The position numbers and the translations under genes were made by a program. A DNA stretch of 40,518 bases from a virus: the IMG/VR virus record IMGVR_UViG_3300002835_010847, positions 1-40,518 of that record; one strand, written 5' to 3'. Below, in pieces: positions 2,639 through 23,608 of the stretch. The notes below the pieces were generated by a model. The model saw only the letters and a program-made list of their open reading frames with translations, did no database searches and was not told the DNA's origin. The number at the start of each line of letters is the position of its first letter. Position 1 is the first letter of the stretch.

Positions 2639-4168
2639 ATGGTAAATTGTATTATATTTTACGGAAACAGCGATATTACTGTAGGTCCTAAAACAGCAGG
2701 TCCGTTTCGAATTGCAACAGAATTAAGAAAGCATGGGTTTTCTGTAATATGTATTGATATAACCGCGTTTGATGGGATGGATGATAATTTTAAAGAAATA
2801 TATTCTTCCTTAGTATCCTCTGAAACTTTATGGACAGGATTCAGCGGAACATTTATGCGAGACATTTTTGGTAAGCCTTCTTTATTACCATTGGGCTCTA
2901 AAAGATTTTTAGATAAAGATCCAAATCATTTTGATAAAGGTGTGCAAGAATTTGTCGATTTTGCAAAAAGATTAAATCCTAAAATGAAATTACTGTTAGG
3001 TGGAGCAAGGTTGCACCGGTTGAGTTCTTTGGGATTTATAACTTTTGAAAAATATGTTGATAAAGAAATTGTAGATTATACAAAATGGCTAGCAAAACAA
3101 TCAACAAAAATAAATCTCCAATTTTACACCGATACTATTGTTGGAGAAGAATTTAAAGAGTTTTCATCATCGCAGATTTTATATGAAGAAAACGATATTA
3201 TATTCAAAACCGACACACTTCCTTTAGAAGTATCTAGAGGATGCATTTTTAAATGTAAATTTTGTTCATACCCATTGAATGGAAAAAAGAAAGGTGACTG
3301 GATTAAACAGGCAAAGTTGTTAAGAGAAGAACTAATTTTAAACTATGAAAAATTTGGAGTTACAAATTATGCTTTGACCGACGATACGTATAACGATTCA
3401 GTTGATAAATTACTGTTACTTTATGATGAAGTTTGGTCAAAAGTTCCTTTTAAAATTAAATTTTCAACTTACACTAGGTTAGATCTTATTGTAAGATTTC
3501 CAGAGATGGTAGATATTTTAAAAGAATCTGGATTAAAAAGCGCGGTATGTGGTCTAGAAAGCATTAATCCAAAATCTGCAAAATCAATTGGTAAAGGCCT
3601 TGATCCTCAAATTCAAATTGAATTTGCAAGAGAATTAAAAAAAGATAAATGGAAAGATATTTTAATTTCTTCAAATTTTATTTTAGGATTGCCTCATGAT
3701 ACAAGAGAAACAATTGATGAATTTGAAGAATGGGTTTTAGGAGATAAAAATCCATTTGATTACTGGTACATATTTCCTTTAGGTATTTTTCCTCCAGGAT
3801 CTAATAAATCATATACTCAATCAGAATTTGATTTAAATTATAAAGATTATGGTTACGAATTAATTCGAGGTCCTGATGATCCAGATTATCTTTACATAGG
3901 CTGGAAAAACGATAGAACAAAACTCAATGCGCCATATTGTAATTCTAAATCTAAATTAATATTAGACAGATCTAGAAAGACTAACTGGAAATTTGGCGGA
4001 TGGTTATGGAGTATAATGCAAGAATTTATACCAGATGAAGATATTACTCGTCTTTCGAGAAATGAATGTTATAAAAAATACAACCTTGATAAACTGAGAG
4101 AAGAAAAGAAAAAGTTGTATATAAAACGATTATACAAAGTTGTAGAGAACATAAAAAATTCTAAATAA
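2639..4168 (+). CDS. Radical SAM enzyme with B12-binding-like N-terminal domain (A)
   Basis: This is a 509-residue protein. The N-terminal 180 residues look like the Rossmann-type cobalamin domain common in this superfamily (strand-rich, with MKLLLGGAR at 116-124), but I see no DxHxxG cobalamin-His motif. The 4Fe-4S motif C202xxxC206xxC209 lies in SRGCIFKCKFC, followed by a TIM-barrel-like region with GLES and ILGLPHDT, as in Elp3/MiaB-like radical SAM proteins. I chose ATG 2639, two bases after the desaturase stop, rather than the upstream TTG inside that gene. It is clearly paralogous to the protein at 7284-8741. Its product is unknown. Confidence 0.82.
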   Translation: MVNCIIFYGNSDITVGPKTAGPFRIATELRKHGFSVICIDITAFDGMDDNFKEIYSSLVSSETLWTGFSGTFMRDIFGKPSLLPLGSKRFLDKDPNHFDKGVQEFVDFAKRLNPKMKLLLGGARLHRLSSLGFITFEKYVDKEIVDYTKWLAKQSTKINLQFYTDTIVGEEFKEFSSSQILYEENDIIFKTDTLPLEVSRGCIFKCKFCSYPLNGKKKGDWIKQAKLLREELILNYEKFGVTNYALTDDTYNDSVDKLLLLYDEVWSKVPFKIKFSTYTRLDLIVRFPEMVDILKESGLKSAVCGLESINPKSAKSIGKGLDPQIQIEFARELKKDKWKDILISSNFILGLPHDTRETIDEFEEWVLGDKNPFDYWYIFPLGIFPPGSNKSYTQSEFDLNYKDYGYELIRGPDDPDYLYIGWKNDRTKLNAPYCNSKSKLILDRSRKTNWKFGGWLWSIMQEFIPDEDITRLSRNECYKKYNLDKLREEKKKLYIKRLYKVVENIKNSK

Positions 4169-4739
4169 AAATAACATCATTTTCAATTAAGGGATTGAGA
4201 AAAGTAACACAATCTGGGTTCGTTTCAACTTGCATACTTATTCTCGGAACATTGTTCTTGTTCATTTTTACATCATGAGGGACGCTGCTTCTTATAACCG
4301 TAGGTCCATCAAGTTCAAAAGTAGATCTAGCCTGAATGTCTTTTGATACAAATGGTCGATAACTTTTTATTCCGGATTTAGGATTAGTTGTTTTAACTAC
4401 TCTACAATTTCCATAAAAAGTTGTTTTAGATCCTTCGGTGTTAAGCAACGGCATTAATACTTTTGCATAAGGGGGCAGTAAATCAATATGTATTGGTCCA
4501 TGCGAATCGTCGTACATAACAAAAATAGAAATAAGATAAGGTTCAAGATCTAACTTATTAAAGGACGGTACCAATAAAGGGCAATAACTAGTAAATTTTT
4601 TAAAGTCTACAATATAGTAACTAGACAATTTTCTTTGAAAAATTTTATCATCATTTTTGACAAATTCTAAACTTTTACTTCTTATTTCTTGAAAATTTGG
4701 TAAATCAATCTTTTTAAAATAAATGTCATCTTGGTTCAT
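4161..4739 (-). CDS. 2OG-Fe(II) oxygenase / aspartyl-hydroxylase-like protein (1)
   Basis: This is a 192-residue protein with a plausible jelly-roll iron site: H84xD86 (HIDLLPP), H155 (SSVPHDV) and R166 (PRISMQ) as 2-oxoglutarate anchor. That spacing matches small aspartyl/asparaginyl beta-hydroxylase-like enzymes of marine phages. AAAGG precedes the ATG. The gene converges on the radical SAM gene, and the two coding ends overlap by eight bases. Adjacency to a B12-type radical SAM recalls the pair at 7284-9183. Substrate (protein side chain or small molecule) is unknown. Confidence 0.6.
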   Translation of the reverse strand: MNQDDIYFKKIDLPNFQEIRSKSLEFVKNDDKIFQRKLSSYYIVDFKKFTSYCPLLVPSFNKLDLEPYLISIFVMYDDSHGPIHIDLLPPYAKVLMPLLNTEGSKTTFYGNCRVVKTTNPKSGIKSYRPFVSKDIQARSTFELDGPTVIRSSVPHDVKMNKNNVPRISMQVETNPDCVTFLNPLIENDVIFI

Positions 4740-4805
4740 TGTACACCTTTTTTATAATTTATACAAACTTAAAATATTAAATAAAGAAAATGAAAAAGGA
4801 AAATT

Positions 4806-5297
4806 ATGCCATTATATAAAAAAATTGATACCTTTGATGTCGACGAAATCCTTAAACAATACACTGAATTAGAAAATAATATAGTTTGGAGAGAAAGTAG
4901 TAGAGGAAAACAGGCTGGTATACAATATAAAGAAGGAGAAAATCCTTGGGAAAGTGCAGTTGGAAAATTTAAAGACAGGACCGAAGAATCGTATTCTCTT
5001 TTAAATCCTTTTTTCAAAGATACTATTTTTGAAGAAATTATCAAAAAACATAATTTAATTCGAACAAGATTAATGTGGGTATTCCCAATGTCTTGTTATT
5101 CATTTCACAACGATGTAGCCCCTAGGATACATTATCCATTAATAACAGATAATGAATGTTATTTCCTTTTTAAAAAAGGAGAACTAATACATTTTCCTGC
5201 TGGAGAAGTTTGGTGGGTTGATACTAGGTTTAAACATACATTTTTAAATGCATCTAACGTAAATCGATTACACATTGTAGGTGTAGTGAAACGTTAA
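4806..5297 (+). CDS. Aspartyl/asparaginyl beta-hydroxylase-like 2OG oxygenase (2)
   Basis: This is a 163-residue protein with the best-formed oxygenase site of the group. It reads YSFHNDVAPRIHYPL (H101, D103), then HFPAGEVWWVDTRFKHTFLN (second His 144) and NRLHIVG (R154). The pattern is that of aspartyl/asparaginyl beta-hydroxylase domains, which use Fe(II) and 2-oxoglutarate. AAAGGA lies seven bases before ATG. It is divergent from the oxygenase at 4161 and overlaps the SGNH gene tail to tail by four bases. Confidence 0.75.
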   Translation: MPLYKKIDTFDVDEILKQYTELENNIVWRESSRGKQAGIQYKEGENPWESAVGKFKDRTEESYSLLNPFFKDTIFEEIIKKHNLIRTRLMWVFPMSCYSFHNDVAPRIHYPLITDNECYFLFKKGELIHFPAGEVWWVDTRFKHTFLNASNVNRLHIVGVVKR

Positions 5298-6013
5298 ATT
5301 TGTCCTAAGACAAATTCTGATACTAACTGATGAGTTTTAATTCCAGGATGTATTAAATCTCTCGCAAAGTCATTTGTCACTTTAAAATCGATTAAAAATA
5401 ATTTTGGAGCATCAAAGCATAAAAACTTTATATTATTTGTTATACAAATATTTTCTATGGCTAAAATATTTTTTTGTTGATTTAAAAAAGAGTTTGTATC
5501 GTCTAAAAGCCACTTTTTATAAAAAGAATCCATTTGATAAAATTTCATTTGCGATCTATAATAGAATATTTTTTGATTCTCGCATAGTTCTATTCTTGAA
5601 TTTTCCGGACTAAACATTATTACAATTTTTGGTTTTAAAGTTGAAATATAATGGTACCCAAATCTAAATGCAGTATCATTCGATGTTCCACCTAGACCTA
5701 AATTAAAAAACCTAAGTTTTAACTTTTGAGATATTAAATATCCGGCAGTTTCTTCTAACGGTAATCCAGTACCAAAGGTTAAACTACATCCCAAAAAAAG
5801 TATTGAATCAGTATCTGCATCAAATTCAAAAGACCTAAATCCATCACCGTTGAATTTGTAAGTTATTTTTTTATCTATCCAATTATTACTTTTTAATAAA
5901 TTGAAATTTTTATTAAGATTTTCTTCATATCTTTCTTTTGAATCAAAGAGATCCCATTCTTGAATAGTATTAGAAAAAATTTTATATGAATGAAAGCCGA
6001 GATCTGTATTCAT
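5294..6013 (-). CDS. SGNH/GDSL-family hydrolase-like protein
   Basis: This is a 239-residue protein with the SGNH blocks in order: LGCSLTFG (block I, nucleophile Ser77), LGLGGTSND (glycine block II with Asn112), and RDLIHPG near the end (Asp219, His222). This class cleaves or transfers esters, often acetyl groups on sugars or lipids. I see no signal peptide, so the protein should be cytoplasmic. In this setting removal or transfer of acyl groups on glycans is plausible but inferred. ATG is 38 bases from the divergent gene at 6052. Confidence 0.72.
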   Translation of the reverse strand: MNTDLGFHSYKIFSNTIQEWDLFDSKERYEENLNKNFNLLKSNNWIDKKITYKFNGDGFRSFEFDADTDSILFLGCSLTFGTGLPLEETAGYLISQKLKLRFFNLGLGGTSNDTAFRFGYHYISTLKPKIVIMFSPENSRIELCENQKIFYYRSQMKFYQMDSFYKKWLLDDTNSFLNQQKNILAIENICITNNIKFLCFDAPKLFLIDFKVTNDFARDLIHPGIKTHQLVSEFVLGQI

Positions 6014-6038
6014 AAATTTTTAACCTCTAATCTATTTA

Positions 6039-6051
6039 ATTAAATATTGTT
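6039..6051 (+). promoter_or_regulatory. TAAATA box five bases before an ATG that lacks a Shine-Dalgarno
   Basis: ATTAAATA (6039-6046) is followed by five bases and then ATG 6052, and no Shine-Dalgarno sequence is visible. The same arrangement occurs before 9183 (minus) and 17052 (plus). If it works as a T4-like late promoter, transcription would begin at or beside the ATG. This is inferred from three similarly spaced sites. Confidence 0.3.
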
Positions 6052-6675
6052 ATGCAAGATTTATTATTTGGTAAAGTAAATTTTCCTCCTTTAGACAAAC
6101 AGTTATTAACATCTCAAATAATGAGTGTTGATAAAAAATATTGGTTTCGAGACGATTATAGAGCGACTAACATGTTATCTCTGATGACTAAAAATCCTAT
6201 TCCAGGACCGGAAGGAACTAAAAATAGTGTTAAAGGTGAGTTTCAGTGGTTACCATATACTCCGACTGCATTAAAAGACTGGTTTGAAAAAGAGATTTTT
6301 CCGTGGATGGGAACAAAAACTCGAATCATGGCTTTATTAACACATGCAAATGATAAAAACAACGAGCATATAGATTGTGATGAAAAAGATATTGGAACAT
6401 TACAGCACAAATTCAGATATGTGATTAAAGGCAAAACCAGTACTCTTTATTTTAAAAACGAAAACAAAGATGTTTTTGTTCCAGAAATTGATGGTCCATT
6501 TATAATGGACGGTAGTTGGCCACATGGTATGTATAATTTCGACAATGATTATAAACTTACTATAGCCGCAGGTTCACCATGGAATGGCAATGTTCAATAT
6601 TCAAATTTAGCAGTTCTTATGAAGAAAAGTGAATTGGTATTTCCAAAAGATTATAAAAAATATTTAAAAAAATAA
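6052..6675 (+). CDS. 2OG-Fe(II) oxygenase-like protein (3)
   Basis: This is a 207-residue protein with HIDCDEKD (H106xD108) and a second His in SWPHGMYN (H158) after a GPFIMDG turn, as in the aspartyl-hydroxylase-like jelly rolls nearby. The usual arginine that anchors 2-oxoglutarate about ten residues later appears to be Lys168 (DYKLTIAAGSPW). Either the co-substrate site is altered or the alignment is off. There is no clear ribosome site before ATG. A GNAT gene follows one base after the stop. Confidence 0.55.
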   Translation: MQDLLFGKVNFPPLDKQLLTSQIMSVDKKYWFRDDYRATNMLSLMTKNPIPGPEGTKNSVKGEFQWLPYTPTALKDWFEKEIFPWMGTKTRIMALLTHANDKNNEHIDCDEKDIGTLQHKFRYVIKGKTSTLYFKNENKDVFVPEIDGPFIMDGSWPHGMYNFDNDYKLTIAAGSPWNGNVQYSNLAVLMKKSELVFPKDYKKYLKK

Positions 6676-6676
6676 T

Positions 6677-7291
6677 ATGTCTTATCGCGTTAAGTCTTAC
6701 AAAGATCTCAGTGTTATAGAAACACAACAATTCATTGAGTTTTGCAAATTAGCATCGACAGAAAAAAAAGACCCAGCAAGTGTTAACATGTGGGATGAAA
6801 ATGAAAATTCTAAGCACACCATTTTATATAAACTAGATAAAACACCAACGTTTACTGAACCAAACGGAATATTTTTTATACTATTTTATAATGATCAAAT
6901 AGTAGGATGTAGCGGCGTTTATAAAAGTTCTTTTTCTAATGAAATTTATATTGCAGGTGCTAGGACTTGGATTGACAAAAGATTTCGAAATCAATCTGTA
7001 ATTAAAGAATACTTTTTTCCTATGCAAAAAAAATGGGTAATAGATAAAGCAGGAAAAATAATTGCGTTAACATTTAACGAATACAACAAAAACATTATAG
7101 AAATTTTCAAAAGAAATAGGTTGGGAGAAAAGAATAATAGGATTAACAAACGATCTGAAGGCGATTTATTCTTTAACGGAATAAACGTTTTAGATTTTCC
7201 AGTTAATATAAATTATACAAAACAATGGATATGCTATGAACAGTTAGAATCAAATTTTGTTTTTGATTGGGAAAAAATAAAATTTATATAG
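6677..7291 (+). CDS. GNAT-like acyltransferase
   Basis: This is a 204-residue protein. Its central part (GIFFILFYNDQIVGCSGVY, then IYIAGARTWIDKRFRNQSV) looks like strands 2-4 of a GNAT fold with the R-x-x-x-x region that binds acetyl-CoA pyrophosphate. NEYNKNIIEIFKR fits the later helix where the acceptor enters. It is cotranscribed with the oxygenase at 6052 and overlaps the radical SAM gene tail to tail by eight bases. Acyl donor and acceptor are unknown. The family call is moderate because the glycine-rich loop is degenerate. Confidence 0.55.
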   Translation: MSYRVKSYKDLSVIETQQFIEFCKLASTEKKDPASVNMWDENENSKHTILYKLDKTPTFTEPNGIFFILFYNDQIVGCSGVYKSSFSNEIYIAGARTWIDKRFRNQSVIKEYFFPMQKKWVIDKAGKIIALTFNEYNKNIIEIFKRNRLGEKNNRINKRSEGDLFFNGINVLDFPVNINYTKQWICYEQLESNFVFDWEKIKFI

Positions 7292-8741
7292 ACATTAACT
7301 TTTCGTAATACAAATTTCTAAACGCAGTATTTCTTCTTTTGATCTCTTCCCAATTTAGTTCACTACGTCTTGCTCTTAACATAGTGTTCTTATCGTAACC
7401 TAAACTAGTCAAATGCATGTATGTCCACGGATGCAGTCTAGCAAGTGGTTTTAATTCTAAATCAATTTGTTTCGAACAATCTTCTGCTTCTTGTTGCGTC
7501 CAATCATTATTAAACCATTTTCCGTTACTGTCAACTTTAAATCCATACTTACTAGAATTTTTATCAAATTCACTAGTAACTGTCCATGCTAATGCACTTG
7601 AGAAAAATCCAAGTGCAGTAAATTTAATACTGTGTAGATCATTTTCTTTATACCATTTAATTGTTTCTAATAAATTTTCTTTTGTGTCGTAAGGTAGTCC
7701 AACAATAAAATTTAAATGCTGTGTTACTTCTTTATTCCATAATTCATTATATAGTTTAGGAAGCCAATCTCTGGCATGTTTACTACTCCATCCTTTTCCT
7801 ACTAACATAGATGCTCGAGGATGTAATGTTTCTATTCCGTGCATTGCTCCTACTAATCCAGAATTTTTTAATAAATCAACAGTTTCGGGAAAAGACCATA
7901 CTAAGTCTGCTCTAATATATGCAGTATATTGAATCTTAAATGGCAATGTTTGTATCATATCATGCCATGCTTTAACTTTAAAAACTGTATCATTAAACGT
8001 GTCACAGACAACGTAATAACTAGTTACTCCAAAATTTTCATAATTATGTATTAGTTCTTCTTTAACACACTCCATGGATCTAATATAATCCATTTTTGCC
8101 TTTCCTAAAAGGTCAAACTGACAAAATTTACATTTAAAAATGCATCCTCGAGATACTTCTATAGGAAGTGTTTCATTGGGAAAAATTAAATCTTGATTAG
8201 AAAATTTGAAATTGTCTCCTTCAATTTTGTATTTTGAATTATTTGGAGCATGATAATTTAACATCATTTTGTCACCAGATGGCAACAATACTCTTCTAGC
8301 CTGAGGAGGAGGGTCTCCATTTTTATAATGATTTAATAATTCTAAAAATGTATCTTCGGCAAATCCTGTAACAACACATTCTACTAAAGGTGATCCTTTA
8401 AATCTATTTCCAATGTGCCCACCTAAAATAATTTTTAATTTAGGATATTTTTCTTTTAGCATTATAAGTACATTCATCAAAGTTTCAGGAACAAAACTTC
8501 CGCCGATATGATGAGCGTGATAAATGTGAGTCATACCTATACCAAGAACCATAGTTTTTTCAGTAACAAATTTTGTTGTTAATTTCCAAAGTTCTTCCTG
8601 CGACCATGCAGTAACAAAATCTATCACTTGAGCAGTATACCCGTGATTTCTAATATAACCTGCAATCTTATAAACTCCCATTGTTCTGGCAGACAAATTT
8701 GTCGGCGGATTGGGCATATCATTCCAAAAAACTACGTCCAT
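7284..8741 (-). CDS. Radical SAM enzyme with B12-binding-like N-terminal domain (B)
   Basis: This is a 485-residue paralogue of the protein at 2639-4168. The N-terminal part has Rossmann-like segments (MVLGIGM at 64-70, KIILGGHIGNRF at 103-114), and the cluster motif is C200xxxC204xxC207 in SRGCIFKCKFC. Downstream come HGIETLHP and FIVGLPYDTKE, the radical SAM barrel elements seen in its partner. AGGA precedes ATG. B12-type radical SAM enzymes often methylate unactivated carbons or rearrange ring systems. Which of these applies here cannot be read from the sequence. The small oxygenase at 8749 lies directly upstream on the same strand. Confidence 0.82.
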   Translation of the reverse strand: MDVVFWNDMPNPPTNLSARTMGVYKIAGYIRNHGYTAQVIDFVTAWSQEELWKLTTKFVTEKTMVLGIGMTHIYHAHHIGGSFVPETLMNVLIMLKEKYPKLKIILGGHIGNRFKGSPLVECVVTGFAEDTFLELLNHYKNGDPPPQARRVLLPSGDKMMLNYHAPNNSKYKIEGDNFKFSNQDLIFPNETLPIEVSRGCIFKCKFCQFDLLGKAKMDYIRSMECVKEELIHNYENFGVTSYYVVCDTFNDTVFKVKAWHDMIQTLPFKIQYTAYIRADLVWSFPETVDLLKNSGLVGAMHGIETLHPRASMLVGKGWSSKHARDWLPKLYNELWNKEVTQHLNFIVGLPYDTKENLLETIKWYKENDLHSIKFTALGFFSSALAWTVTSEFDKNSSKYGFKVDSNGKWFNNDWTQQEAEDCSKQIDLELKPLARLHPWTYMHLTSLGYDKNTMLRARRSELNWEEIKRRNTAFRNLYYEKLMSI

Positions 8742-8748
8742 AATTTTC

Positions 8749-9183
8749 CTAATTTAATTTTGATATTGTTATAGCAATTCGAGGGTGAGAAATATTCATT
8801 ACAAAATGATATACATCAGTTTGAATTCGATGCCATCTTTCTTTTTCAATTAAAAATTTTTGTTTAAATCTTTTTTGATCATCAAAAAAACATGTATATA
8901 CATTATCTCCACCAGGATCAATAATATAGTTGAAGGCTTCTTTCCTAACTAGATCTTTATGGATAGGAAGACCTTTATAAACAATATGTATCTTTGCTGA
9001 ATAATCGACTGTAAAATATTGATAAGCAAAATTTTTTATTTTTTCTCCGGCATTAAATGTTTTGTAATACTGATAACTATCATCCGGATATACATTTTTA
9101 TTGTTGTTAATACACCAATATGCTTCGTCAATAAGTGATTGATCTATTTTTGGAATAGTATCGATATATTCTAAATAATTCAT
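8749..9183 (-). CDS. Small 2OG-Fe(II) oxygenase-like protein (4)
   Basis: This is a 144-residue protein. Candidate iron ligands are H75xD77 (LPIHKDLVR) and H126 (DVYHFVMN), with R135 (PRIAITIS) in the 2-oxoglutarate position. The NYIIDPGGDNVYTCFFDD stretch resembles the double-stranded beta-helix core of small phage oxygenases. No Shine-Dalgarno is visible. AATAAATA lies five bases before ATG, as described for 6039. It sits eight bases upstream of the B12-type radical SAM gene on the same strand. Confidence 0.55.
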   Translation of the reverse strand: MNYLEYIDTIPKIDQSLIDEAYWCINNNKNVYPDDSYQYYKTFNAGEKIKNFAYQYFTVDYSAKIHIVYKGLPIHKDLVRKEAFNYIIDPGGDNVYTCFFDDQKRFKQKFLIEKERWHRIQTDVYHFVMNISHPRIAITISKLN

Positions 9184-9188
9184 AAAAA

Positions 9189-9196: not shown

Positions 9197-9200
9197 TGGT

Positions 9201-9695
9201 TTATGATTGCAGAATAATATTTGCAGCCTCTTCTACTGAAATGTAATTCTTTTTATCCATGGTTGGATATTTTTCTAAAATTTTAGATGTTCCTACGTAT
9301 CCAAATGATACATATTTTACTTTACAAAACCCAATAACTCTATTTGACATTTCTTTTAGCATTACTTTTTCTGCCTGATAATGTAACAAATTAAGTTTAT
9401 TATTTGGAAGATATTTTATATCTGCAATTCTACTTCCTACATTTATTATAGTTTTATTTCTTAAGTTATACCAACTATTCCATAGATCTATAAACATTAA
9501 AGTTTGGCCAAATTTGTTTTGGGCATTGTTAATAAAAACATCGCAGTCTTGCACTTCTTCAATTATCTTCAACCGAGAAGAATTTTCATTTATATCGTAT
9601 CCGTTCGATCTACTGAATCCCAATATGTTTGGACTTAATCTATTAAAAATTTCTAAACCAATACCATAGGTATGTCCTGTAATTGCATATTTCAT
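9201..9695 (-). CDS. Minimal short-chain dehydrogenase/reductase
   Basis: This is a 164-residue NAD(P)-binding Rossmann protein. It has the SDR glycine motif TGHTYGIG (6-13), an NNA-type motif (INNAQ, 55-59), Ser88 (NVGS) and the catalytic YxxxK as Y106QAEK110. SDRs are normally about 250 residues. Here the segments between the motifs and the C-terminal substrate lobe are trimmed, yet every catalytic residue is present, so it is probably a functional minimal enzyme and not a fragment. Its ATG overlaps the stop of the upstream oxygenase by four bases. Confidence 0.75.
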   Translation of the reverse strand: MKYAITGHTYGIGLEIFNRLSPNILGFSRSNGYDINENSSRLKIIEEVQDCDVFINNAQNKFGQTLMFIDLWNSWYNLRNKTIINVGSRIADIKYLPNNKLNLLHYQAEKVMLKEMSNRVIGFCKVKYVSFGYVGTSKILEKYPTMDKKNYISVEEAANIILQS

Positions 9696-10309
9696 TTAAA
9701 CCTCAACGTTAATCCTAATTTTTCCCCGGTCATTTTAGCCGTGCAATGAATTCTTCTCGAGTCAAATATAATAACACTACCCGAACTAAATGGATAAGCA
9801 TTTCCACTTAGACCAAATAAAGTTTGAAAAGGATACTGCGATAAAAAATTTTTATGTAATTCTTTGTCTATTGGTTCCCCAGTTAAGCCAGTAACAGGAT
9901 ATTCGTATGGAGAACCTTTAACTCCAATGTTTACTTTAAAATTTTTTACTGGATGATGCATACACCAAGTAACACTATCTAGTTCCCAAATTTGATCAAA
10001 TATAATTAGATGGGGTAACTCACTAGAAAATGATAATGGTATTACTACATTTATTTTTCCATTCTGATAGGTTTTATAATCTGTGTGTGGAAAGTAGGGC
10101 TGATTGTGTTTATAAAAATTTCCCTGCACATAATCTAACTTTTTTCCTATTTGCTCTTCTAATATAGTCCTAACAATATCTAATGCTTTACCCGGAGGCG
10201 CCTTATTCATAGAAACTGTATCATAAGTACCAATTTCGTTATAATAATCAATTAAATTTTGTACAAGGGCCGAATCAATTATTTCAAAAATTTGTTTTGT
10301 TTGCATCAT
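9692..10309 (-). CDS. 2OG-Fe(II) oxygenase (5), prolyl-hydroxylase-like
   Basis: This is a 205-residue protein with a clean 2-His-1-Asp facial triad: H75xD77 (YFPHTDYKT) and H188 (FDSRRIHCTAKM), with R203 (LTLRF) for 2-oxoglutarate near the C-terminus. The layout (HxD, a long insert, then H...R) fits the prolyl-4-hydroxylase-like 2OG superfamily common in aquatic phages. The start codon lies inside the upstream radical SAM gene (26-base overlap), with AAAGA seven bases before it. Its stop is coupled to the SDR gene. Confidence 0.7.
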   Translation of the reverse strand: MMQTKQIFEIIDSALVQNLIDYYNEIGTYDTVSMNKAPPGKALDIVRTILEEQIGKKLDYVQGNFYKHNQPYFPHTDYKTYQNGKINVVIPLSFSSELPHLIIFDQIWELDSVTWCMHHPVKNFKVNIGVKGSPYEYPVTGLTGEPIDKELHKNFLSQYPFQTLFGLSGNAYPFSSGSVIIFDSRRIHCTAKMTGEKLGLTLRFK

Positions 10310-12644: not shown

Positions 12645-12672
12645 AAATTTCCTTAGAATTTTTGTCAACTAT

Positions 12673-13029
12673 TTAACTATAGAGATTTTTAAAGATAAAA
12701 TAATCGAAGACGAATGTTATCTCTGCACCAATGAACACAGATATCCAATAATTGTTAATAAAATTCCAAATTTGTCTTATTAACCACCAAGCAGCAATTA
12801 CTCGAAGGGTGTAAATTATATCGGATTTTATATATTCAATTAACTCTGGTATTTCTACCGAATTAAAATAAAATCCAAATATAAATGTGTCATAGGCAAA
12901 ACTTAATTGCGCCATTACAAATACAGCAATGTAGTAAGGGAGATATCGATTTAAAAACTTTACAATAACTCCGCTTACCAACAATCTATAAGAAACATAG
13001 ATTAAATTTATAACAAGTAAGTCAATCAA
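12673..13029 (-). CDS. Small integral membrane protein, TTG start
   Basis: This is a 118-residue, strongly hydrophobic protein with three or four probable membrane helices (about 4-24, 31-50, 72-90 and 95-114). I recognise no family. The start is TTG at 13029, immediately after the TAA of the amidotransferase gene. AAAGG seven bases before it supports this unusual start, and no ATG is available near the N-terminus. Position after the TctC and amidotransferase genes suggests a membrane partner, but that is inference. Confidence 0.55.
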   Translation of the reverse strand: MIDLLVINLIYVSYRLLVSGVIVKFLNRYLPYYIAVFVMAQLSFAYDTFIFGFYFNSVEIPELIEYIKSDIIYTLRVIAAWWLIRQIWNFINNYWISVFIGAEITFVFDYFIFKNLYS

Positions 13030-15961: not shown

Positions 15962-15962
15962 T

Positions 15963-16982
15963 TTAATCTTTCTTTTGATAAGGTTCAACCTTCCTTGAAC
16001 ATTTTATTTTACATATACGACTGTCAAATTTTAAGAAGTCTGTTTTCCAAAAAGGATCTAAAAGTATTTCATCTAACGTTTTTAATTTTAAATTAAATTT
16101 TGTTTTTGCTAAATCTAACCAATAATTGTTAACGCTATATCTATTACCTGACCAACAACAGGGATAAAACTCTCCTAGACTGTTTATAAAAACTCCAACT
16201 TCTCCTGTTAAACAACTTTTTGCTCTTAGTTCAAAAGTTTTTAATTTAAGCGTTCTTTTCCATACTACAGAATAATCATTTGGTCGAATCTTTGAAGTTA
16301 GGTCTTCAGCAGTTACTTCATACTTGTAAGAAGGAGAAACTAAATCCATTCTAGGCTGCAATTCATCAAATCCATCATTTGACCATTTAATATTATAATA
16401 TCCAAATTTAGAACTTTTGGTTATACGATACTGATCGAAACCCAAATCTTTAGCCATCTGTTTTTGGTATTCCATCATATCTTGATTAAAACTAAATGGA
16501 ATCATTCCCCAAACTCTATATGTAGAATTATTGTTTTTAAAAAAAGAATTTATACCAACAATAATACTTTCCCAATCAGAATTTTTTCTATACTTATTAT
16601 TGCTTTCGTGATCCCAACCATCTAAACTCCATGTTATTTCGTCGTGCTCGTTTAATATACTTGCTAAAGATTGCCACCATTCGGCTGTTTTGTAACTACC
16701 ATTTGTAACAATTCTGATATTAATGATAGGATTAATGCTTTTTATCCATGAACAAATTTCCAAAAATTCTTTGCAGTAAATTGGATCACCATCATTACCA
16801 CAAAAGTTCATCATTCGTATATCACGGATTCTACTTTCAGTAATCTGTGTTTTAAAAAAATTTAAATCCAATTGTTTGTTTAATAAGGTTTCAGGTACTT
16901 CAGCCCTTGTACACCTCGGACATTTCAATGTACAAATACTGGAAACTTCAACATGCCAATGGTCTAATACTAAATCGCTCAT
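15963..16982 (-). CDS. Radical SAM protein with SPASM-type C-terminal cysteines
   Basis: This is a 339-residue protein. The core motif C17xxxC21xxC24 (SSICTLKCPRC) is followed by NFCGNDGDP and SLDGWDHES barrel elements. The C-terminus has a SPASM-like set: SCLTGEVGVFINSLGEFYPCCW and later CKIKC. SPASM enzymes use extra Fe-S clusters, mostly to modify ribosomal peptides or protein side chains. ATG 16982, with AGGAA before it, is preferred; a GTG further upstream at 17063 would run into the divergent gene at 17052. Confidence 0.82.
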   Translation of the reverse strand: MSDLVLDHWHVEVSSICTLKCPRCTRAEVPETLLNKQLDLNFFKTQITESRIRDIRMMNFCGNDGDPIYCKEFLEICSWIKSINPIINIRIVTNGSYKTAEWWQSLASILNEHDEITWSLDGWDHESNNKYRKNSDWESIIVGINSFFKNNNSTYRVWGMIPFSFNQDMMEYQKQMAKDLGFDQYRITKSSKFGYYNIKWSNDGFDELQPRMDLVSPSYKYEVTAEDLTSKIRPNDYSVVWKRTLKLKTFELRAKSCLTGEVGVFINSLGEFYPCCWSGNRYSVNNYWLDLAKTKFNLKLKTLDEILLDPFWKTDFLKFDSRICKIKCSRKVEPYQKKD

Positions 16983-17038
16983 AGAACTATTTACAATTCC
17001 TATTAACTTTAGTAAAATATTTCTATAAATCTTTAGAC

Positions 17039-17046
17039 CATAAATA
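17039..17046 (+). promoter_or_regulatory. CATAAATA box five bases before ATG 17052
   Basis: CATAAATA matches the NATAAATA late-promoter form and is followed by five bases and ATG 17052, which has no Shine-Dalgarno. It lies between divergent radical SAM genes. A leaderless or near-leaderless transcript would result if the box is used. Inference only. Confidence 0.3.
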
Positions 17047-17051
17047 TTATA

Positions 17052-18011
17052 ATGAAATTGCACGGAACAAAAATAATCGAAATCAAAAATGAATCAGACA
17101 TGATAACAATTGATTGGACTTTAGGGAATTTTTGCAATTTCAAATGCGGCTATTGTTTTGATGATTGCAACAGTGGCACTATACGACCACCAAAGATAAA
17201 TGATACTGTAAAAAATAATATTCAACATTTGATTAATCAAATTAGAAAAAATAATGATAAAAGTATTATTTTTAATTTTGGTGGAGGTGAACCTACCTTA
17301 TTTCACGATTTTGAAAACTTAATAAATTTTTGTAGCACACTTGGAAAAATATCAATGGTTACAAACGGAAGTCGAACCATTAATTGGTGGAACGATAACA
17401 AAAAATTTATTAATTTTATCAGTCTTAGTTTTCACGTAGAAGAAACAAATTTTGATCACGTTGTTAATTTAATCAAAGAAATCGGTAATGATGTTTCAAT
17501 CAGTGTTCATTTTATCATAGATGATTTACATTTTGACAAATCAACAAATTTATATGAACAATTAAGAAATATAATAATTGAACAAAAGTTGAAAACAAAT
17601 TTATATATTAAAACGTTAAGGTCTACTTCAAAACGAAAAATATCGTATGACAAAGATCAAAGTAAAATAATTAACAGTTTGTTACCATACTCGATAAATC
17701 CACCCGTTTTTAAAACTTTAATAAAACTTGAAAATGGAAAAACAGTAGGATGGGATATGAGAAATTTGATAAATTATTCTGAAAATTTTTTTAATTACAC
17801 CTGCGAGGGACACAAGGAATTTGTTCAAATATTTTTAAATGGTGACGTGGGAATGATGTCGTGTGGTCAATTTTATCTTAACAATATGACAAATATATTT
17901 TCTAATGATTTTTCAAAAAATTTTATCGTCAATGATGAAAAATTAATTTGTAAGCAATTAAGAGATTGCGGATGTTTAGGACTACATACTGCATCAAAAT
18001 TTATTAACTAA
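17052..18011 (+). CDS. Radical SAM protein with C-terminal auxiliary cysteines
   Basis: This is a 319-residue protein. The cluster motif is C28xxxC32xxC35 (NFCNFKCGYC), directly followed by FDDC; the glycine motif is NFGGGEPTLF. The C-terminus carries CEGHKEFVQIFLNGDVGM with SCGQ, then CKQLRDCGCLG, a cysteine set expected to hold an auxiliary Fe-S cluster (twitch/SPASM-like). It starts a plus-strand run of four genes reaching the split pair at 20281-21244. Function within the family is unknown. Confidence 0.8.
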   Translation: MKLHGTKIIEIKNESDMITIDWTLGNFCNFKCGYCFDDCNSGTIRPPKINDTVKNNIQHLINQIRKNNDKSIIFNFGGGEPTLFHDFENLINFCSTLGKISMVTNGSRTINWWNDNKKFINFISLSFHVEETNFDHVVNLIKEIGNDVSISVHFIIDDLHFDKSTNLYEQLRNIIIEQKLKTNLYIKTLRSTSKRKISYDKDQSKIINSLLPYSINPPVFKTLIKLENGKTVGWDMRNLINYSENFFNYTCEGHKEFVQIFLNGDVGMMSCGQFYLNNMTNIFSNDFSKNFIVNDEKLICKQLRDCGCLGLHTASKFIN

Positions 18012-18020
18012 AAAAATATT

Positions 18021-19448
18021 ATGCTAGATTATATCTACTCAGATCAAGAAAACCCATTAATGATGATTGTATGGGACTTAGGGCGGAGATGCAACTATGA
18101 TTGCACATATTGCACATCGTGGATGCATTCAACTACTGCACCGTTAAACAGTCTCGAACAATACAAAAAAACTGCTCAATTTATTGACAAATATTATTCT
18201 ATATATTCTAAACATCATAGAAAAAATTGGAATTTGATGATTTCATTTACAGGAGGAGAGCCAGCAGTCAACCCTGCATTTTTTGATCTTTTATCATTTT
18301 TAAAAGAAAATTATCCTTATATGAAATTGAACCTAACCACTAATGGAACATGGAACGAAAGAAAAGGAAAATTTTTATTAGATCATTTAGATAGCATTAC
18401 AGTTTCATATCATTGTGAAGGTACACAAAAACAAAAAGATCTTGTTAGACATAACCTTAAATGGGTTCGAAACACTATAAAAAATCCTAGTAAATTAAAA
18501 GTAAATGTAATGATGCATCAAGATTATTTCGACGAATGCGTTGATTTAATTGAAAATTTCTTAAAGCCCAATGATATAAAATACATTCCCAGAGTAATTG
18601 GTGATGATAATAAATTTAAATCTAAATGGTTTGAAGATATGGACGGTGCCATGCGTCGAACATCGCACACATACACTTTTGAACAATTAGATTATCTTAA
18701 AAATCATTGGAATAAGAAAAATCAAGAAGCAGCAAATGCTAATTTTAAAAAACAAAAACGAACTAACATTTTTGACTATACCAAAGACAATTTCAAAACA
18801 AAAAAAATTATTGAAATAAAAGTAGATAATTCACCAATCAATGTAAAAAAAGTCGAAGAAATTGTTGACATGAAAGAAATCGTTAATGTAATAAAAGTTG
18901 AAGATCCAATTGTTACAAAAAAGATTGATACTAGTTTGTTAGAAAAATCACAACCAAAAGCAATAGAAATAAAAACAGAAGTAACCGATGGACTTGCTAG
19001 AAAAATGGGGAGAATGTGTTGCGGTGGTAGATGTATGACTGTTAAAGATAACGGAGAAATTAAGAACGCTGCATTTATTGAACAAAGTAATTTTAAAGGG
19101 TATAACTGCATGGTAAATTGGTTTTTCTTACATATAGAAGAAGATAAAAACGCTGTATACCATCATCAAACGTGCATGGCAAAACTTCCTAATACTCCAG
19201 AAGTTGATATTGACATGATAAAATTTACCAAAGCAAAATTTACAAACGAAGTTGGCCCAATTACGTCTTTGACCGAATCTGACAGATATTTAGAGTGGTT
19301 AGAAAAACAATTTGAAAACGGTAGAACTCCTACTATCATTTGCCCCAATACTCATTGCGGGTGCGGTATTTGTGTTACCAAAGCCAGCAATGAATTAGAT
19401 TTCAGAGAAATTGCAAACAAATTTATAAAATTAGGAGAAACTATTTAA
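18021..19448 (+). CDS. Large radical SAM protein with low-complexity insert and cysteine-rich C-terminus
   Basis: This is a 475-residue protein. The core motif is C24xxxC28xxC31 (RRCNYDCTYC), with SFTGGEPAV and LTTNGTW as barrel motifs. Residues of about 247-322 form a Lys/Glu/Val/Ile-rich linker with repeated VxxI-type spacing, unlike the rest of the protein. After it comes a cysteine-rich part (CCGGRC, NCMVNWFF, QTCMA, CPNTHCGCGIC) able to hold one or two more Fe-S clusters. There is no Shine-Dalgarno before ATG 18021. The next gene starts directly after its stop. Confidence 0.8.
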   Translation: MLDYIYSDQENPLMMIVWDLGRRCNYDCTYCTSWMHSTTAPLNSLEQYKKTAQFIDKYYSIYSKHHRKNWNLMISFTGGEPAVNPAFFDLLSFLKENYPYMKLNLTTNGTWNERKGKFLLDHLDSITVSYHCEGTQKQKDLVRHNLKWVRNTIKNPSKLKVNVMMHQDYFDECVDLIENFLKPNDIKYIPRVIGDDNKFKSKWFEDMDGAMRRTSHTYTFEQLDYLKNHWNKKNQEAANANFKKQKRTNIFDYTKDNFKTKKIIEIKVDNSPINVKKVEEIVDMKEIVNVIKVEDPIVTKKIDTSLLEKSQPKAIEIKTEVTDGLARKMGRMCCGGRCMTVKDNGEIKNAAFIEQSNFKGYNCMVNWFFLHIEEDKNAVYHHQTCMAKLPNTPEVDIDMIKFTKAKFTNEVGPITSLTESDRYLEWLEKQFENGRTPTIICPNTHCGCGICVTKASNELDFREIANKFIKLGETI

Positions 19449-20294
19449 GTGTTTTATCTTGATTTAAAAAAAGGAAATTACGTTGCCACAATTAAATTTA
19501 AGGAACTTGATCACTCATTATCTAAAAAATGGGCAAAAGTTCTTAAAAAACATATCGACGCTGGCTATCCCATAGCACAACCGAACAGAATCTATAATCT
19601 AAACAATGAATGGGACGAATTAAAAATTATTAATCAAATAAATCAATGCATTCAAACTATAAACAACTATAAACAGTTTATTGATTTTAAAATTTTATCT
19701 CAACAACTTTCACAAACTGACTCAAACATCCTACATCATTACTTTGAATTAATGAGAGGAGAAAACGACAGTCCCAATGAATTTTACAGAGACGCCCCCA
19801 GGGAAATTAAAAAAGTAATTGAAGAATATAATGTGTTGATACATAGATGGGAAGATCTAGGTAGTTATGGAAGAATTGTAGTGCATTTCAAAGAACGCCC
19901 AATGTTTGAATTAGATGACGAGGATTATCAACACTGGACTTTAAATTACGAGCCAGGCGATATAAGACTAAATTATTGTCACAAAGGAAAAACAATTTGG
20001 GACTGTTTCAAAGACGGGGATGATATAGTAGGTGATGATAACATTAGACCTCAACATAGGTACAGTCCAGATTTTAATATTATCTTTGGACGAGGCCCTG
20101 GAAAAACTCAAGCATTTGTAGATTGGTGGGAAAGAATGTCGCCGAAGTTAAATCAATTAGGATTTTACCAAGATGATCCTAAATGTGCAATAGGACATGC
20201 TGTAATAGGAAAAATACAAGGCGACCCAGATGCTGTAAAGAAAAATATTTTAGGAGCAACAGAAATATTAGGAATAAGATATGATAACACTTAA
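19449..20294 (+). CDS. Unrecognised protein linked to radical SAM genes, GTG start
   Basis: This is a 281-residue soluble protein that I cannot assign. The N-terminal half is helical. The C-terminal half has an unusually aromatic and charged segment (RIVVHFKERPMFELDDEDYQHW, then GDIRLNYCHKGKTIWDCF) and HRYSPDFNIIFGRG. The His/Asp/Glu-rich part could bind metal, but I see no known triad. The start is GTG directly after the TAA of the upstream gene, with AGGAG eleven bases away. It sits between two radical SAM loci on the same strand, so it may be a partner or substrate protein; this is inference. Confidence 0.6.
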   Translation: MFYLDLKKGNYVATIKFKELDHSLSKKWAKVLKKHIDAGYPIAQPNRIYNLNNEWDELKIINQINQCIQTINNYKQFIDFKILSQQLSQTDSNILHHYFELMRGENDSPNEFYRDAPREIKKVIEEYNVLIHRWEDLGSYGRIVVHFKERPMFELDDEDYQHWTLNYEPGDIRLNYCHKGKTIWDCFKDGDDIVGDDNIRPQHRYSPDFNIIFGRGPGKTQAFVDWWERMSPKLNQLGFYQDDPKCAIGHAVIGKIQGDPDAVKKNILGATEILGIRYDNT

Positions 20295-20568
20295 ACCAAG
20301 ATGCATGTATAAAGATAACAACGGTGTTGTCATGGGAATTGCCTATTGTTCCGACGGGTATCTTCTTCCGTGTTGTTGGCTTGACACAGAATGGTCAAAA
20401 AAAACTTTAGTAGAACTAGGTCTATACGATAATGAACTAAAATTAGAAAATAACAATTCTGTCGAAGATATTGTTAAAAGTAATCAATGGAAAAGTTTTA
20501 TAAGAATACTGCAAGAAGAACCAGAATTGGCTCCAAAAAAATGTCACGAAAAATGTAAAAATGATTGA
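20281..20568 (+). CDS. Stand-alone SPASM-like domain protein
   Basis: This 95-residue protein looks like the auxiliary-cluster part of a radical SAM enzyme without the core. It reads CMYKDNNGVVMGIAYCSDG, then LLPCCWLD, and ends with a CHEKC motif. The C...G-x-x-x-PCC...CxxxC spacing equals the C-terminal part of the protein at 15963. It overlaps the upstream gene by 14 bases and the downstream radical SAM core gene by eight, so the two are likely made together and may assemble as one split enzyme. Confidence 0.68.
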   Translation: MITLKPRCMYKDNNGVVMGIAYCSDGYLLPCCWLDTEWSKKTLVELGLYDNELKLENNNSVEDIVKSNQWKSFIRILQEEPELAPKKCHEKCKND

Positions 20569-21244
20569 TGCTGATGAATTTTTAAATATTCAAAAAGAAC
20601 AAGGTAGTTCAAATATAGAACTAACATATAAATGTCCTTTGCAATGTTCTCAATGTTTGAGAACAGATCTCGTAGATAAAAAAGTAGAAAAAAGAAATTA
20701 CATGAAGGAAAAAATTTCTCAGTCATCTGATATTTCTTTAGACAATTTTAGAAAATTATGCAAATTTTTTAATAACACAATAGCGTTATGCGGTCAAATA
20801 TCTGACCCAGTTTACCATAAAGATTTTTTTGAAATTTTAAAAATTTGTTCTCTAGAGTTTCCAAATAAAAAATTTAAGATACACACAGCAGCACATCAAA
20901 AAAATATTGAATGGTATGAAAAGGCCTTTGATTTGACTGGTGATAATGTTTTGTGGATGTTTGGATTAGACGGTCTACCGGATACTAGTTACTTGTACAG
21001 AAGGGGACAAAATTCTCAATTAATTTTTGATGCTATGATGTTGGGTAGTAAATTGAATAAAAAAATAATTTGGCAATTTATTGTATTTGAATTCAACGAA
21101 CATCAAATAGAAACTGCTAGATCCATTTGTAAACAAAACAATATCTTATTTAAATTAGTTAAAACTTATCGAACTTCAAAAAATATTAAACTCCCGTCTG
21201 AATCATATAGACCAAAGGGTTTAATAAAAGAATGGACCGACTAA
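20561..21244 (+). CDS. Radical SAM core protein lacking its own SPASM domain
   Basis: This is a 227-residue protein with the cluster motif C25xxxC29xxC32 (YKCPLQCSQC) and barrel elements ALCGQISDPVYH and FGLDGLPDTSYLYR, closely parallel to the core of the protein at 15963. It ends after the barrel with no auxiliary cysteines; the missing part is supplied by the gene just upstream. ATG lies in the last codons of that gene. Related core-only proteins are common in marine phages. Substrate unknown. Confidence 0.8.
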   Translation: MIDADEFLNIQKEQGSSNIELTYKCPLQCSQCLRTDLVDKKVEKRNYMKEKISQSSDISLDNFRKLCKFFNNTIALCGQISDPVYHKDFFEILKICSLEFPNKKFKIHTAAHQKNIEWYEKAFDLTGDNVLWMFGLDGLPDTSYLYRRGQNSQLIFDAMMLGSKLNKKIIWQFIVFEFNEHQIETARSICKQNNILFKLVKTYRTSKNIKLPSESYRPKGLIKEWTD

Positions 21245-21245
21245 T

Positions 21246-22004: not shown

Positions 22005-22014
22005 ATTTTTTCCG

Positions 22015-22932
22015 TTATTCAAATGTTGTAAAAATTAAATTAGACTGTCTCGGAGTATTAAAATTGAATTGTTTAAAAAATTTACTTTGTCTTGGCGTAA
22101 ACATTTCTGGAATTTCTAAAATGCCTTTTAATAAATTGCTATATGTTTCAATTTTTTCTTGGACATCATCTTCAGATAAGTCAGATAGTTCATTTTCCCA
22201 ATAAGAATTTAAATAATCAAAATTTCTAACTTGTTCAAAATTCCAATTTGAATAAAGTACTTTGCAACATCCCATTCTTGCTCCTAATATTGCCCAAGTA
22301 CCATATTCTACGTCACTGCCAACAGTTGCCCAAACTAATAATCTTTTAACATTCCCATGCCACAAATCTGAAACATGTTGGGGACGAAGACCCTTGTCAA
22401 GGCTCATTTTTACTCCTTCTCGAAATCCTGCTCTCCATGCCTGCAATTTTGATGAATTGTTTCTTATTTCGCTAAATGATAAATCCAAAGGAATATAATT
22501 TATATCCCAACAAAAATCTATTTTAGATCTAGGTTTATCATCAGGAGCATTTTCATGAGTCTGCATAGACAAGGCAAGATCAGTTGGCCAACATTTAATT
22601 CCTCCATTACCGTATAATAATCCATTTATTGTATTAAAACTTGGCCAAGAAAAAACAGAGTTCTCGATATCTATCAAATCATCTTTGATAATTAATTTTT
22701 GTTTAACAAAGTTTTCTTTTGTTAAAAAATTGTCACCATCGATTACAACGAATCTTTCTGTTTCTGATTTTCTTGCTGCTTCTTTGTGTGCAGTATCACT
22801 GCCCTTTATTCCATGCACTCTTTTTGCATATGGTATCATTGTAACCAATTGTTGATAATTTTCATCTGCATTTGGTTCATCGTAACTCAAAAAGATAACA
22901 TCATACTTAGACAGATTAATTGATCTCTCCAT
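22015..22932 (-). CDS. Glycosyltransferase-like protein (GT-A type), copy 1
   Basis: This is a 305-residue protein. DVIFLSYDEPNADENY opens a GT-A-like nucleotide-binding fold, and FVVIDGDNFL (DGD at 65-67) is the likely metal-binding DxD motif. GLLYGNGGIKCWP resembles the acceptor-side loop. The start is ATG 22932 with AAGGAAAC before it, inside the end of the upstream paralogue. It shares the EPNA, HGIKG and DGD blocks with copy 2. The product would be a sugar transfer to an unknown acceptor. Confidence 0.6.
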   Translation of the reverse strand: MERSINLSKYDVIFLSYDEPNADENYQQLVTMIPYAKRVHGIKGSDTAHKEAARKSETERFVVIDGDNFLTKENFVKQKLIIKDDLIDIENSVFSWPSFNTINGLLYGNGGIKCWPTDLALSMQTHENAPDDKPRSKIDFCWDINYIPLDLSFSEIRNNSSKLQAWRAGFREGVKMSLDKGLRPQHVSDLWHGNVKRLLVWATVGSDVEYGTWAILGARMGCCKVLYSNWNFEQVRNFDYLNSYWENELSDLSEDDVQEKIETYSNLLKGILEIPEMFTPRQSKFFKQFNFNTPRQSNLIFTTFE

Positions 22933-23608
22933 ATGTTTCCTTAAATTTATTTTTAAGCCAATCAAAATTGTTAATCATATTCATTTCATTTTTGTGTTGA
23001 AGGCCAAATTTTTTTCCTTCCTTGGCTCCATCAATTGCAAATTTTCCAAATGGTCTATCAATGCCCCGCGTACACCAAACTTCGAGGCGTTCTTCAGTTT
23101 CAAAAGATTTTTGGCGATCAATCATTTTGCTAGATAATTTAGCACACTCTCTAAATGCACTTTTCCAAGTGTTAAATGGATCTGTGTTAAATTCGGTAAT
23201 GTTACTGATAACATTGACAGGTTTGTAAAAATCGCTTATACTGGTTGCAATATCTGGATTTTTAATGTTCAAATTTTGAGTCAAATGTTTTGGTAATAAT
23301 TTAACTCCACCGTAACCATAGACCAGATCATTTATCGGATTTTTACTTCTCCAAACATGAACAGTTTTTTTCGCTCCAGTATCATACTCTGGAATTTCAT
23401 AATCAAAATTAAAACTTTCTAAAATTATAGCATCACCGTCTACTACATAAAACATCTCTGTATCAACTAGTTTAGCCGCAATTTTATGAGCATTTTGAAT
23501 ACCCTTTATACCGTGTATTCTTTTAATTTTACCGTTCTTTTTCTTCAAAATTTGCCAATTTTTTTCTGCATTTGGCTCGTTGAAACTGATAAAAACAACA
23601 TCGTACAT
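22916..23608 (-). CDS. Glycosyltransferase-like protein (GT-A type), copy 2
   Basis: This is a 230-residue paralogue of the downstream gene. It begins MYDVVFISFNEPNAEKNW, has RIHGIKGIQNAHK and the DxD-like VVDGDAI (DGD 57-59), then VYGYGGVKLLP. It is about 75 residues shorter than copy 1 at the C-terminus. It is the first gene of a three-gene minus-strand operon. The spacer upstream contains GGTAAATATG, a weaker version of the late box noted elsewhere. Activity is inferred from these motifs only. Confidence 0.6.
   Translation of the reverse strand: MYDVVFISFNEPNAEKNWQILKKKNGKIKRIHGIKGIQNAHKIAAKLVDTEMFYVVDGDAIILESFNFDYEIPEYDTGAKKTVHVWRSKNPINDLVYGYGGVKLLPKHLTQNLNIKNPDIATSISDFYKPVNVISNITEFNTDPFNTWKSAFRECAKLSSKMIDRQKSFETEERLEVWCTRGIDRPFGKFAIDGAKEGKKFGLQHKNEMNMINNFDWLKNKFKETYGEIN

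Follow-up and report, generated by a model that had tools for sequence, protein, structure and literature searches.

A hypervariable island of radical SAM and other tailoring-type enzyme genes in a T4-like myovirus

What would a virus make with about 24 kb of enzyme genes gathered at one place in its genome? The question is raised by IMGVR_UViG_3300002835_010847, a 40,518-base record of IMG/VR (the window, which here means the whole stretch analysed; its left end is the contig end). The initial annotation, made from the letters alone, had described at 2639-23608 a phage-borne island of natural-product-type tailoring enzymes, with radical S-adenosylmethionine (SAM) proteins and 2-oxoglutarate (2OG) oxygenases among them, and had suggested one joint pathway. 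The island and its right end are upheld. Its left start had been placed too far inwards, with two desaturase genes at 1114-2636 omitted, and the island should be taken to span from 1114 or earlier to 23608. A single pathway is not supported: judging by gene order in other phages, the island is a mosaic pieced together from three or more modules, probably four, each found separately elsewhere. The reading favoured here, which has about an even chance of being right, is that of a swappable biosynthetic locus whose enzymes would tailor small molecules or lipids, where the leftmost module (A) most likely acts on a fatty-acyl or membrane-lipid substrate.

A second contig of 125.5 kb (3300034103_001604) overlaps window positions 2432-40518 at 99.995% identity, over 38 kb, and a composite of 127.9 kb was used for this virus. 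The rest of the second contig carries tail-fibre/collagen-type genes, a B-family polymerase, a clamp loader, thymidylate synthase and baseplate genes, all recognised by eye. The T4-type polymerase, clamp-loader and baseplate-type genes, together with the relatives of phrog_11903, which are large T4-like and jumbo phages, identify this virus as a T4-like myovirus. An assembly chimera or bacterial contamination was ruled out because the window matches a second contig that is continuous with T4-like genes, and because the acyl island of a relative, described below, recurs in three contigs.

Site, modules and promoter motif of the island

Relatives were gathered through the backbone gene at 31672-32859, because a radical SAM query would have biased the sampling. 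Radical SAM genes are present in 29 of 42 records (41 of these from the backbone-gene collection), with a maximum of 13, within 52-71 kb. Twelve backbone-gene relatives, three of them near-identical (G019, G054 and G055), were read leftwards from the backbone. A further relative, G002, came from the radical SAM search and not from this collection.

All 12 relatives keep a homologue of the gene at 23700-24422, a HEIIH metalloprotease-like marker, and gene content changes beyond it. Between phage pairs, the open reading frames with a homologue of at least 35% identity amount to 14.6% in the 20.5 kb left of the marker versus 68.6% on its right. The far side of the variable region is bounded in most relatives by a transfer RNA (tRNA) array, with 39 tRNAs in G019, 38 in G070, 13 in G061 and 22 in G002. 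Measured from backbone genes 29393-32859, the G002 island is in the same position, although the 23700-27067 block is missing there. The island is a hypervariable region at one fixed place of the genome, with a different gene set in each relative. At L218:367-9712 (contig 3300042302_000394) an array of 39 tRNA genes adjoins the island.

The modules recur as blocks. Module A (1114-7291, with a B12-type radical SAM gene at the far end) keeps its order and orientation in G002, at 42-67% identity. Module D (9201, 9692 and 10284; genes are named by first position) is found in G002 at 64-68%, inverted and relocated. Module C, in the order sulfotransferase, methyltransferase, TctC, membrane protein, methyltransferase, sulfotransferase, is inverted in G053 (33-70% identity) and lies partially and elsewhere in G070, between backbone genes 30451 and 30998. 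Homologues of module B genes are contiguous in L043/L062 and L076; it is probably a fourth module, more loosely shown than A, C and D. The initial annotation had asked whether homologues occur singly and unlinked in related phages, which is not so: window neighbours that co-occur are still within 1.5 kb of each other in 26 cases out of 41, and genes at least four apart in 18 out of 133. The recurring blocks and this linkage are the reason for reading the island as a mosaic, neither one pathway nor a random store. A mere store of unrelated auxiliary genes, gained one by one and forming no pathway, is already disfavoured and quite improbable. The strand switches gene by gene and relatives differ in most genes, as such a store would suggest, but whole blocks of genes, 33-70% identical, recur with their internal order and relative strands intact, including where a block has been inverted or relocated. 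In the favoured reading the modules would be swapped between related phages, presumably by recombination in the conserved flanks, namely the tRNA array on the left and the HEIIH/UDP-glucose dehydrogenase/FolE block on the right.

The motif ATAAATA has 24 copies in the composite, of which 18 sit 8-80 bp upstream of a gene, tail and baseplate genes included. In the island 5 of 5 copies are placed just upstream of genes (p 2.9e-7), and elsewhere 13 of 19. The shuffled controls ATATAAA and AATAATA are at chance level, and two other A/T-only controls are mildly enriched, as expected because upstream DNA is AT-rich. The T4 late promoter TATAAATA itself is almost absent from the window; the phage uses ATAAATA, which resembles it in sequence. 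The island may consequently be expressed late in infection.

The cobalamin-type radical SAM family and the acyl operons

The AlphaFold2 model of the radical SAM protein at 2639 (pLDDT 89.9) has an N-terminal B12-type Rossmann domain and a radical SAM barrel. Its best PDB match is TsrM (E 1.4e-12), and CysS, OxsB and AprD4 are also matched. The model thus indicates the cobalamin-type fold of natural-product enzymes; AprD4 has this fold without requiring cobalamin. Among the named B12-radical SAM families (HpnJ, PhpK, BchE and ladderane-lipid) the best scores are 56 and 72 bits versus cut-offs of 360-600, with HpnJ and the ladderane-lipid enzymes as weak family matches. Far under every curated cut-off, the 2639 proteins appear to form a separate, virus-enriched family. 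Across 43 homologues, neither the radical SAM motif nor a DT.N signature varies. For gene pairs in related loci, radical SAM pairs included, the ratio of nonsynonymous to synonymous substitution rates (dN/dS) has a median of 0.10 and a maximum of 0.22 where dS is measurable, which indicates purifying selection on the radical SAM family.

Viral contigs yielded about 300 relatives of 2639, and the genomes of 84,980 species of bacteria and archaea one good relative, in Enhygromyxa salina (29% identity). This contrast is only indicative, because the search seeds were exact peptides. At L094:9650-16780 the Enhygromyxa gene lies next to a pair of asparagine-synthase genes, reminiscent of the PP-loop genes found in phage islands. 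Among 50,697 deposited phage records there is no homologue of 2639, TctC or the HEIIH marker, and a desaturase query matched only two records of one Acinetobacter phage. Scans of viral contigs with single sulfotransferase and methyltransferase queries returned only this virus, the exact 8-residue seeds being too strict. The relatives of TctC on plasmids are best in Comamonadaceae/Burkholderiales, which for the host is a hint only.

The 2639 gene is coupled to a desaturase gene: homologues of 1863 and 2639 abut (-3 to +4 bp) in G002, L017, L022 and L023. At the same site, G061 carries a largely co-directional run with a GNAT protein, AcpS, two small proteins, a RimK-type ATP-grasp enzyme, a ketoacyl synthase, two ferritin-like proteins, an acyl carrier protein (ACP) with a DSL motif, a HisC-like aminotransferase and eight desaturases. 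This acyl operon recurs in two other contigs, with ketoacyl synthase identities of 99% and 72%. In one of these, L249, homologues of window genes 6677, 4161, 1114 and 1863 directly adjoin the operon. The G059 island holds an acyl-CoA-ligase-like gene, BKACE, a carbamoyltransferase-like gene, three TctC-like proteins and 2OG enzymes, and that of G019 holds Rieske, nitronate-monooxygenase-like and asparagine-synthase-like genes. Because sister islands show small-molecule or lipid chemistry, module A is preferably assigned an acyl or lipid substrate. The virion protein or host glycan suggested initially is less favoured for this module, given its desaturases and the full ACP/ketoacyl-synthase operon in relatives.

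Some observations weigh against the favoured reading. A search of the 127.9-kb composite for ACP, AcpS, ketoacyl synthase and acyl ligase found none of them, and host acyl donors would therefore be required; a dedicated ACP with an activating or condensing enzyme, as expected of a polyyne or acyl-ACP cluster, is likewise seen in neither window nor composite, ACP, AcpS and ketoacyl synthase occurring in G061. The strand of module A flips gene by gene, unlike a classical operon, and nothing links modules B, C and D to acyl chemistry. Lastly, the left flank of the window island lies past the contig end, so that a tRNA array there is expected from the relatives.

Further observations were recorded alongside. 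The phage-borne run of AcpS, ACP, ketoacyl synthase, ATP-grasp, two ferritin-like, an aminotransferase-like and eight desaturase genes lies at L247:620-13801 (IMGVR_UViG_3300034093_001553) and is seen again in two other viral contigs. Asparagine-synthase/QueC-like PP-loop proteins without a glutaminase domain, of several families of 300-420 aa, occur in L009, L021, L022, L056 and many viral loci; their genes are among the commonest in relatives' islands and absent from the window. A short carbamoyltransferase-like gene (NodU/CmcH type) adjoins the DNA polymerase gene at 79897-80772 of the composite (77466-78341 of contig 3300034103_001604), and full-length versions are found in the islands of G053 and G059.

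Candidate substrates and known systems

The favoured reading proposes a division of labour between modules. In module A, the two membrane desaturases would put in double bonds, the B12-type radical SAM enzymes may perform C-methylation or rearrangement at unactivated carbons, the 2OG enzymes would hydroxylate, and acyl transfer or removal could fall to the GNAT protein and the SGNH hydrolase. Another moiety may be handled or decorated by module C, which has a pair each of sulfotransferases and methyltransferases and a periplasmic binding protein, and modules B and D (SPASM and twitch radical SAM, methyltransferase, 2OG enzyme and a short-chain dehydrogenase/reductase, SDR) would act on yet another. 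The benefit might be a changed envelope or a compound released late in infection. As a more tentative generalisation, T4-like phages would keep one exchangeable locus, from the tRNA array to the FolE block, for complete or near-complete pathways to acyl-derived metabolites or lipids. Such pathways would use virus-specific cobalamin-type radical SAM enzymes and desaturases, would be expressed late and would give a different compound in each lineage, comparable to bacterial O-antigen loci.

Late modification of virion proteins (tail fibre, capsid) or of a peptide is an unlikely alternative with several points in its favour. SPASM and twitch radical SAM types, both present in the island, are usually peptide modifiers; enzymes like the Asp/Asn hydroxylase-type oxygenase and the tyrosylprotein-sulfotransferase-like proteins act on proteins, the latter likeness being that of the best match of a predicted model. 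The late-type motif is common to tail and baseplate genes, and tail-fibre-like genes lie about 19 kb rightwards. On the other hand, integral-membrane desaturases and the ACP/ketoacyl-synthase genes of relatives suit no protein substrate, and module C includes a solute-binding protein. As the initial annotation had remarked, the island holds no precursor peptide gene: it is 99.0% coding, with three gaps only, of 66-91 bp each. A cluster for ribosomally synthesised and post-translationally modified peptides was ruled out, having no precursor.

A DNA base hypermodification pathway is very improbable. 2OG and radical SAM enzymes are known from phage DNA-modification pathways, and FolE, QueD and a QueE-like gene are present in the same genome. 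The queuosine-type genes are nevertheless not part of the island, such a pathway would not account for membrane desaturases or a periplasmic binding protein, and close relatives differ almost wholly in island content.

A change of the host surface glycan or lipopolysaccharide against superinfection, for which module C and the glycosyltransferase-like genes would supply the sugar-decorating enzymes, is about as unlikely as virion modification. UDP-glucose dehydrogenase-like and glycosyltransferase-like genes adjoin the island, and a precedent is found in the hypervariable region of pelagimyophages, with its glycosyltransferases and radical SAM cassettes (PMC7029224). The island, however, has no recognised glycosyltransferase family or sugar-nucleotide pathway, and module A is acyl-like. 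The pelagimyophage region is a host recognition cluster with a proposed role against superinfection (PMC7029224). It resembles the present locus as a large hypervariable region in T4-like phages that holds non-tail genes, radical SAM cassettes included, but it lies between VrlC and the neck gene gp14 and also holds tail fibres. The flanks found here are FolE, UDP-glucose dehydrogenase and HEIIH genes on the right and, in relatives, the tRNA array on the left.

Swappable, radical-SAM-rich modules in T4-like phages are already published. The virulent T4-like Campylobacter phages CP220 and CPt10 have 11-12 radical SAM proteins and an interchangeable five-gene radical SAM module, swapped en masse (PMC2853527). 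As far as that description was consulted, it mentions neither modules with desaturase, sulfotransferase, 2OG or TctC genes nor a site between a tRNA array and FolE. The marine T4-like genome TARA_ERS488813_N000010 is similarly rich, with 12 radical SAM genes, which were discussed as Fe-S cluster supply and not as biosynthetic modules (PMC5332604). Phage biosynthetic clusters are described as rare and mostly as bacteriocins in temperate phages (Dragos et al. 2021, as summarised in PMC10452541); the present locus shares with them biosynthetic genes on a phage and, going by that summary, differs in its T4-like carrier and in having a single hypervariable site filled with radical SAM and acyl-type modules. 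Viral desaturases have also been reported (PMC7678222). A search of open papers yielded no account of the tRNA-array-to-FolE site, of a virus-enriched radical SAM family coupled to desaturases, or of such phages carrying ACP/ketoacyl-synthase operons. If the favoured reading is true, T4-like phages would be makers of specialised lipids or metabolites, beyond boosting host metabolism, and a virus-restricted cobalamin-type radical SAM family would offer C-H chemistry from a new source. Concrete genes for testing follow from the fixed site, the module boundaries and the desaturase coupling, and a unifying view is offered for radical-SAM-rich T4-like phages, known since 2010.

Gene inventory

The genes are collected in Table 1. 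The calls of the initial annotation were right in kind and uneven in strength. PF04055 matches lie at all seven radical SAM genes, and CxxxCxxC is present in 7 of 7. Six reach or exceed the PF04055 cut-off, with 15963 borderline (29.4 bits in the protein scan against 29.5, 31.2 in another scan), and 20561 is called by motif and homology. The lone SPASM gene shows the cysteine pattern, its profile score being under the cut-off of 21.5 bits. Among the five 2OG-type oxygenases, one (4806-5297) has Pfam backing and the other four are called on the HxD...H motif. The sulfotransferase-like call is weak in Pfam (18.4 bits, below cut-off), and the model of 11336 has tyrosylprotein sulfotransferase as top Foldseek match (prob 0.99, but only E 5e-3). 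Of three methyltransferases, 12039 passes its Pfam cut-off, 14644 is weak and 21246 was called by eye; the SDR, SGNH and glycosyltransferase-like genes have no Pfam match. For the 2OG-like and glycosyltransferase-like families, nothing useful came from comparing sequences and profiles with the PDB. Besides the two desaturases, the TctC, Peptidase_C26 and small membrane protein genes had been overlooked.

Table 1. Predicted genes of the island and its right flank (percentages are identities to homologues)
Position	Strand	Predicted product	Basis
3-698	-	RPNxxVxFW small domain fused to cupin-like part; probably island	Open at contig end; 40% to 119-aa protein of G061 acyl operon; ATAAATA at 749
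827-1114	+	Small protein (~95 aa), divergent relative of 3-698 small-protein family	Alignment; ATAAATAT at 797
1114-1866	+	Module A, fatty acid desaturase 1	FA_desaturase 56 bits; 57% homologue adjoining acyl operon in L249
1863-2636	+	Module A, fatty acid desaturase 2	FA_desaturase 67 bits; 68% homologue in L249; stearoyl-CoA desaturase structures matched by sequence
2639-4168	+	Module A, cobalamin-type (B12-fold) radical SAM, virus-enriched family	PF04055 64 bits
4161-4739	-	Module A, 2OG-oxygenase-like	HxD...H by eye; syntenic in G002
4806-5297	+	Module A, Asp/Asn beta-hydroxylase-type 2OG oxygenase	PF05118 (Asp_Arg_Hydrox) 25 bits; syntenic in G002
5294-6013	-	Module A, SGNH-hydrolase-like	GCSLTFG by eye; syntenic in G002, 53%
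6052-6675	+	Module A, 2OG-oxygenase-like	HxD...H invariant across 6 homologues (alignment); G002 67%
6677-7291	+	Module A, GNAT-like acyltransferase	PF00583 17.5 bits, below cut-off; G002 50%
7284-8741	-	Second B12-type radical SAM, paralogue of 2639	PF04055 45.5 bits; B12-type radical SAM at same place in G002
8749-9183	-	2OG-oxygenase-like (HKD...H)	Motif by eye; ATAAATAT at 9195
9201-9695	-	Module D, short SDR-like	68% in G002, order kept; 48% in G019
9692-10309	-	Module D, 2OG-oxygenase-like	64% in G002
10284-11339	-	Module D, twitch-type radical SAM	NF033640 155 bits (cut-off 170); 64% in G002, 54% in G019
11336-12037	-	Module C, sulfotransferase-like 1	Weak Pfam; modelled fold nearest tyrosylprotein sulfotransferase
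12039-12668	-	Module C, SAM methyltransferase	PF08241 23 bits; G053 43%
12673-13029	-	Module C, small membrane protein	G053 62%, same place
13030-13638	-	Module C region, Peptidase_C26/class-I glutamine amidotransferase-like	PF07722 70.7 bits
13599-14555	-	Module C, TctC-type periplasmic solute-binding protein with signal peptide	PF03401 103 bits; G053 47%, G070 46%; ATAAATAT at 14612
14644-15384	+	Module C, SAM methyltransferase	PF13489 20.5 bits; G053 70%
15377-15988	-	Module C, sulfotransferase-like 2	43% to 11336; G070 50%
15963-17063	-	Module B, radical SAM/SPASM	PF04055; homologues contiguous with other module B genes in L043/L062 and L076
17052-18011	+	Module B, radical SAM, viperin-like N-terminal half	Viperin structures by sequence; ATAAATAT at 17040
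18021-19448	+	Module B, radical SAM, long Cys-rich C-terminus	PF04055 42 bits; 32-41% in L065, L076, L043
19449-20294	+	Protein without family match	Family profile scans negative
20281-20568	+	Stand-alone SPASM domain, overlaps next gene	PF13186 18.8 bits, below cut-off
20561-21244	+	Short radical SAM core, homologue of 15963 minus SPASM	24% to 15963; PF04055 18 bits
21246-22022	-	Module B, methyltransferase-like	Homologues adjoin module B radical SAM genes in L076 and L043/L062
22015-22965	-	Glycosyltransferase-like, phage-type, putative	Paralogue of 22916; no Pfam, no PDB match
22916-23608	-	Glycosyltransferase-like, paralogue of 22015	Sequence similarity to 22015
23700-24422	+	HEIIH metalloprotease-like, right boundary marker	First universally kept gene right of variable region, 12/12 relatives
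24693-27067	+	Right flank: UDP-glucose dehydrogenase-like, FolE, glycosyltransferase-like	PHROG matches; kept in most relatives

The module D protein at 10284-11339 stays under the NF033640 cut-off, yet would function like a twitch radical SAM enzyme. The module B gene at 17052-18011 was rejected as a viperin-like antiviral enzyme: it scores 57.8 bits on NF038283 against a cut-off of 180, and the match covers the first ~130 residues only. At 20281-21244 the SPASM gene comes first and overlaps the radical SAM core gene, whereas the paralogue at 15963-17063 fuses both, which gives a split and permuted arrangement. A further 2OG-oxygenase-like gene, at 39810-40493, lies outside the island at the right end of the window, adjoining QueD.

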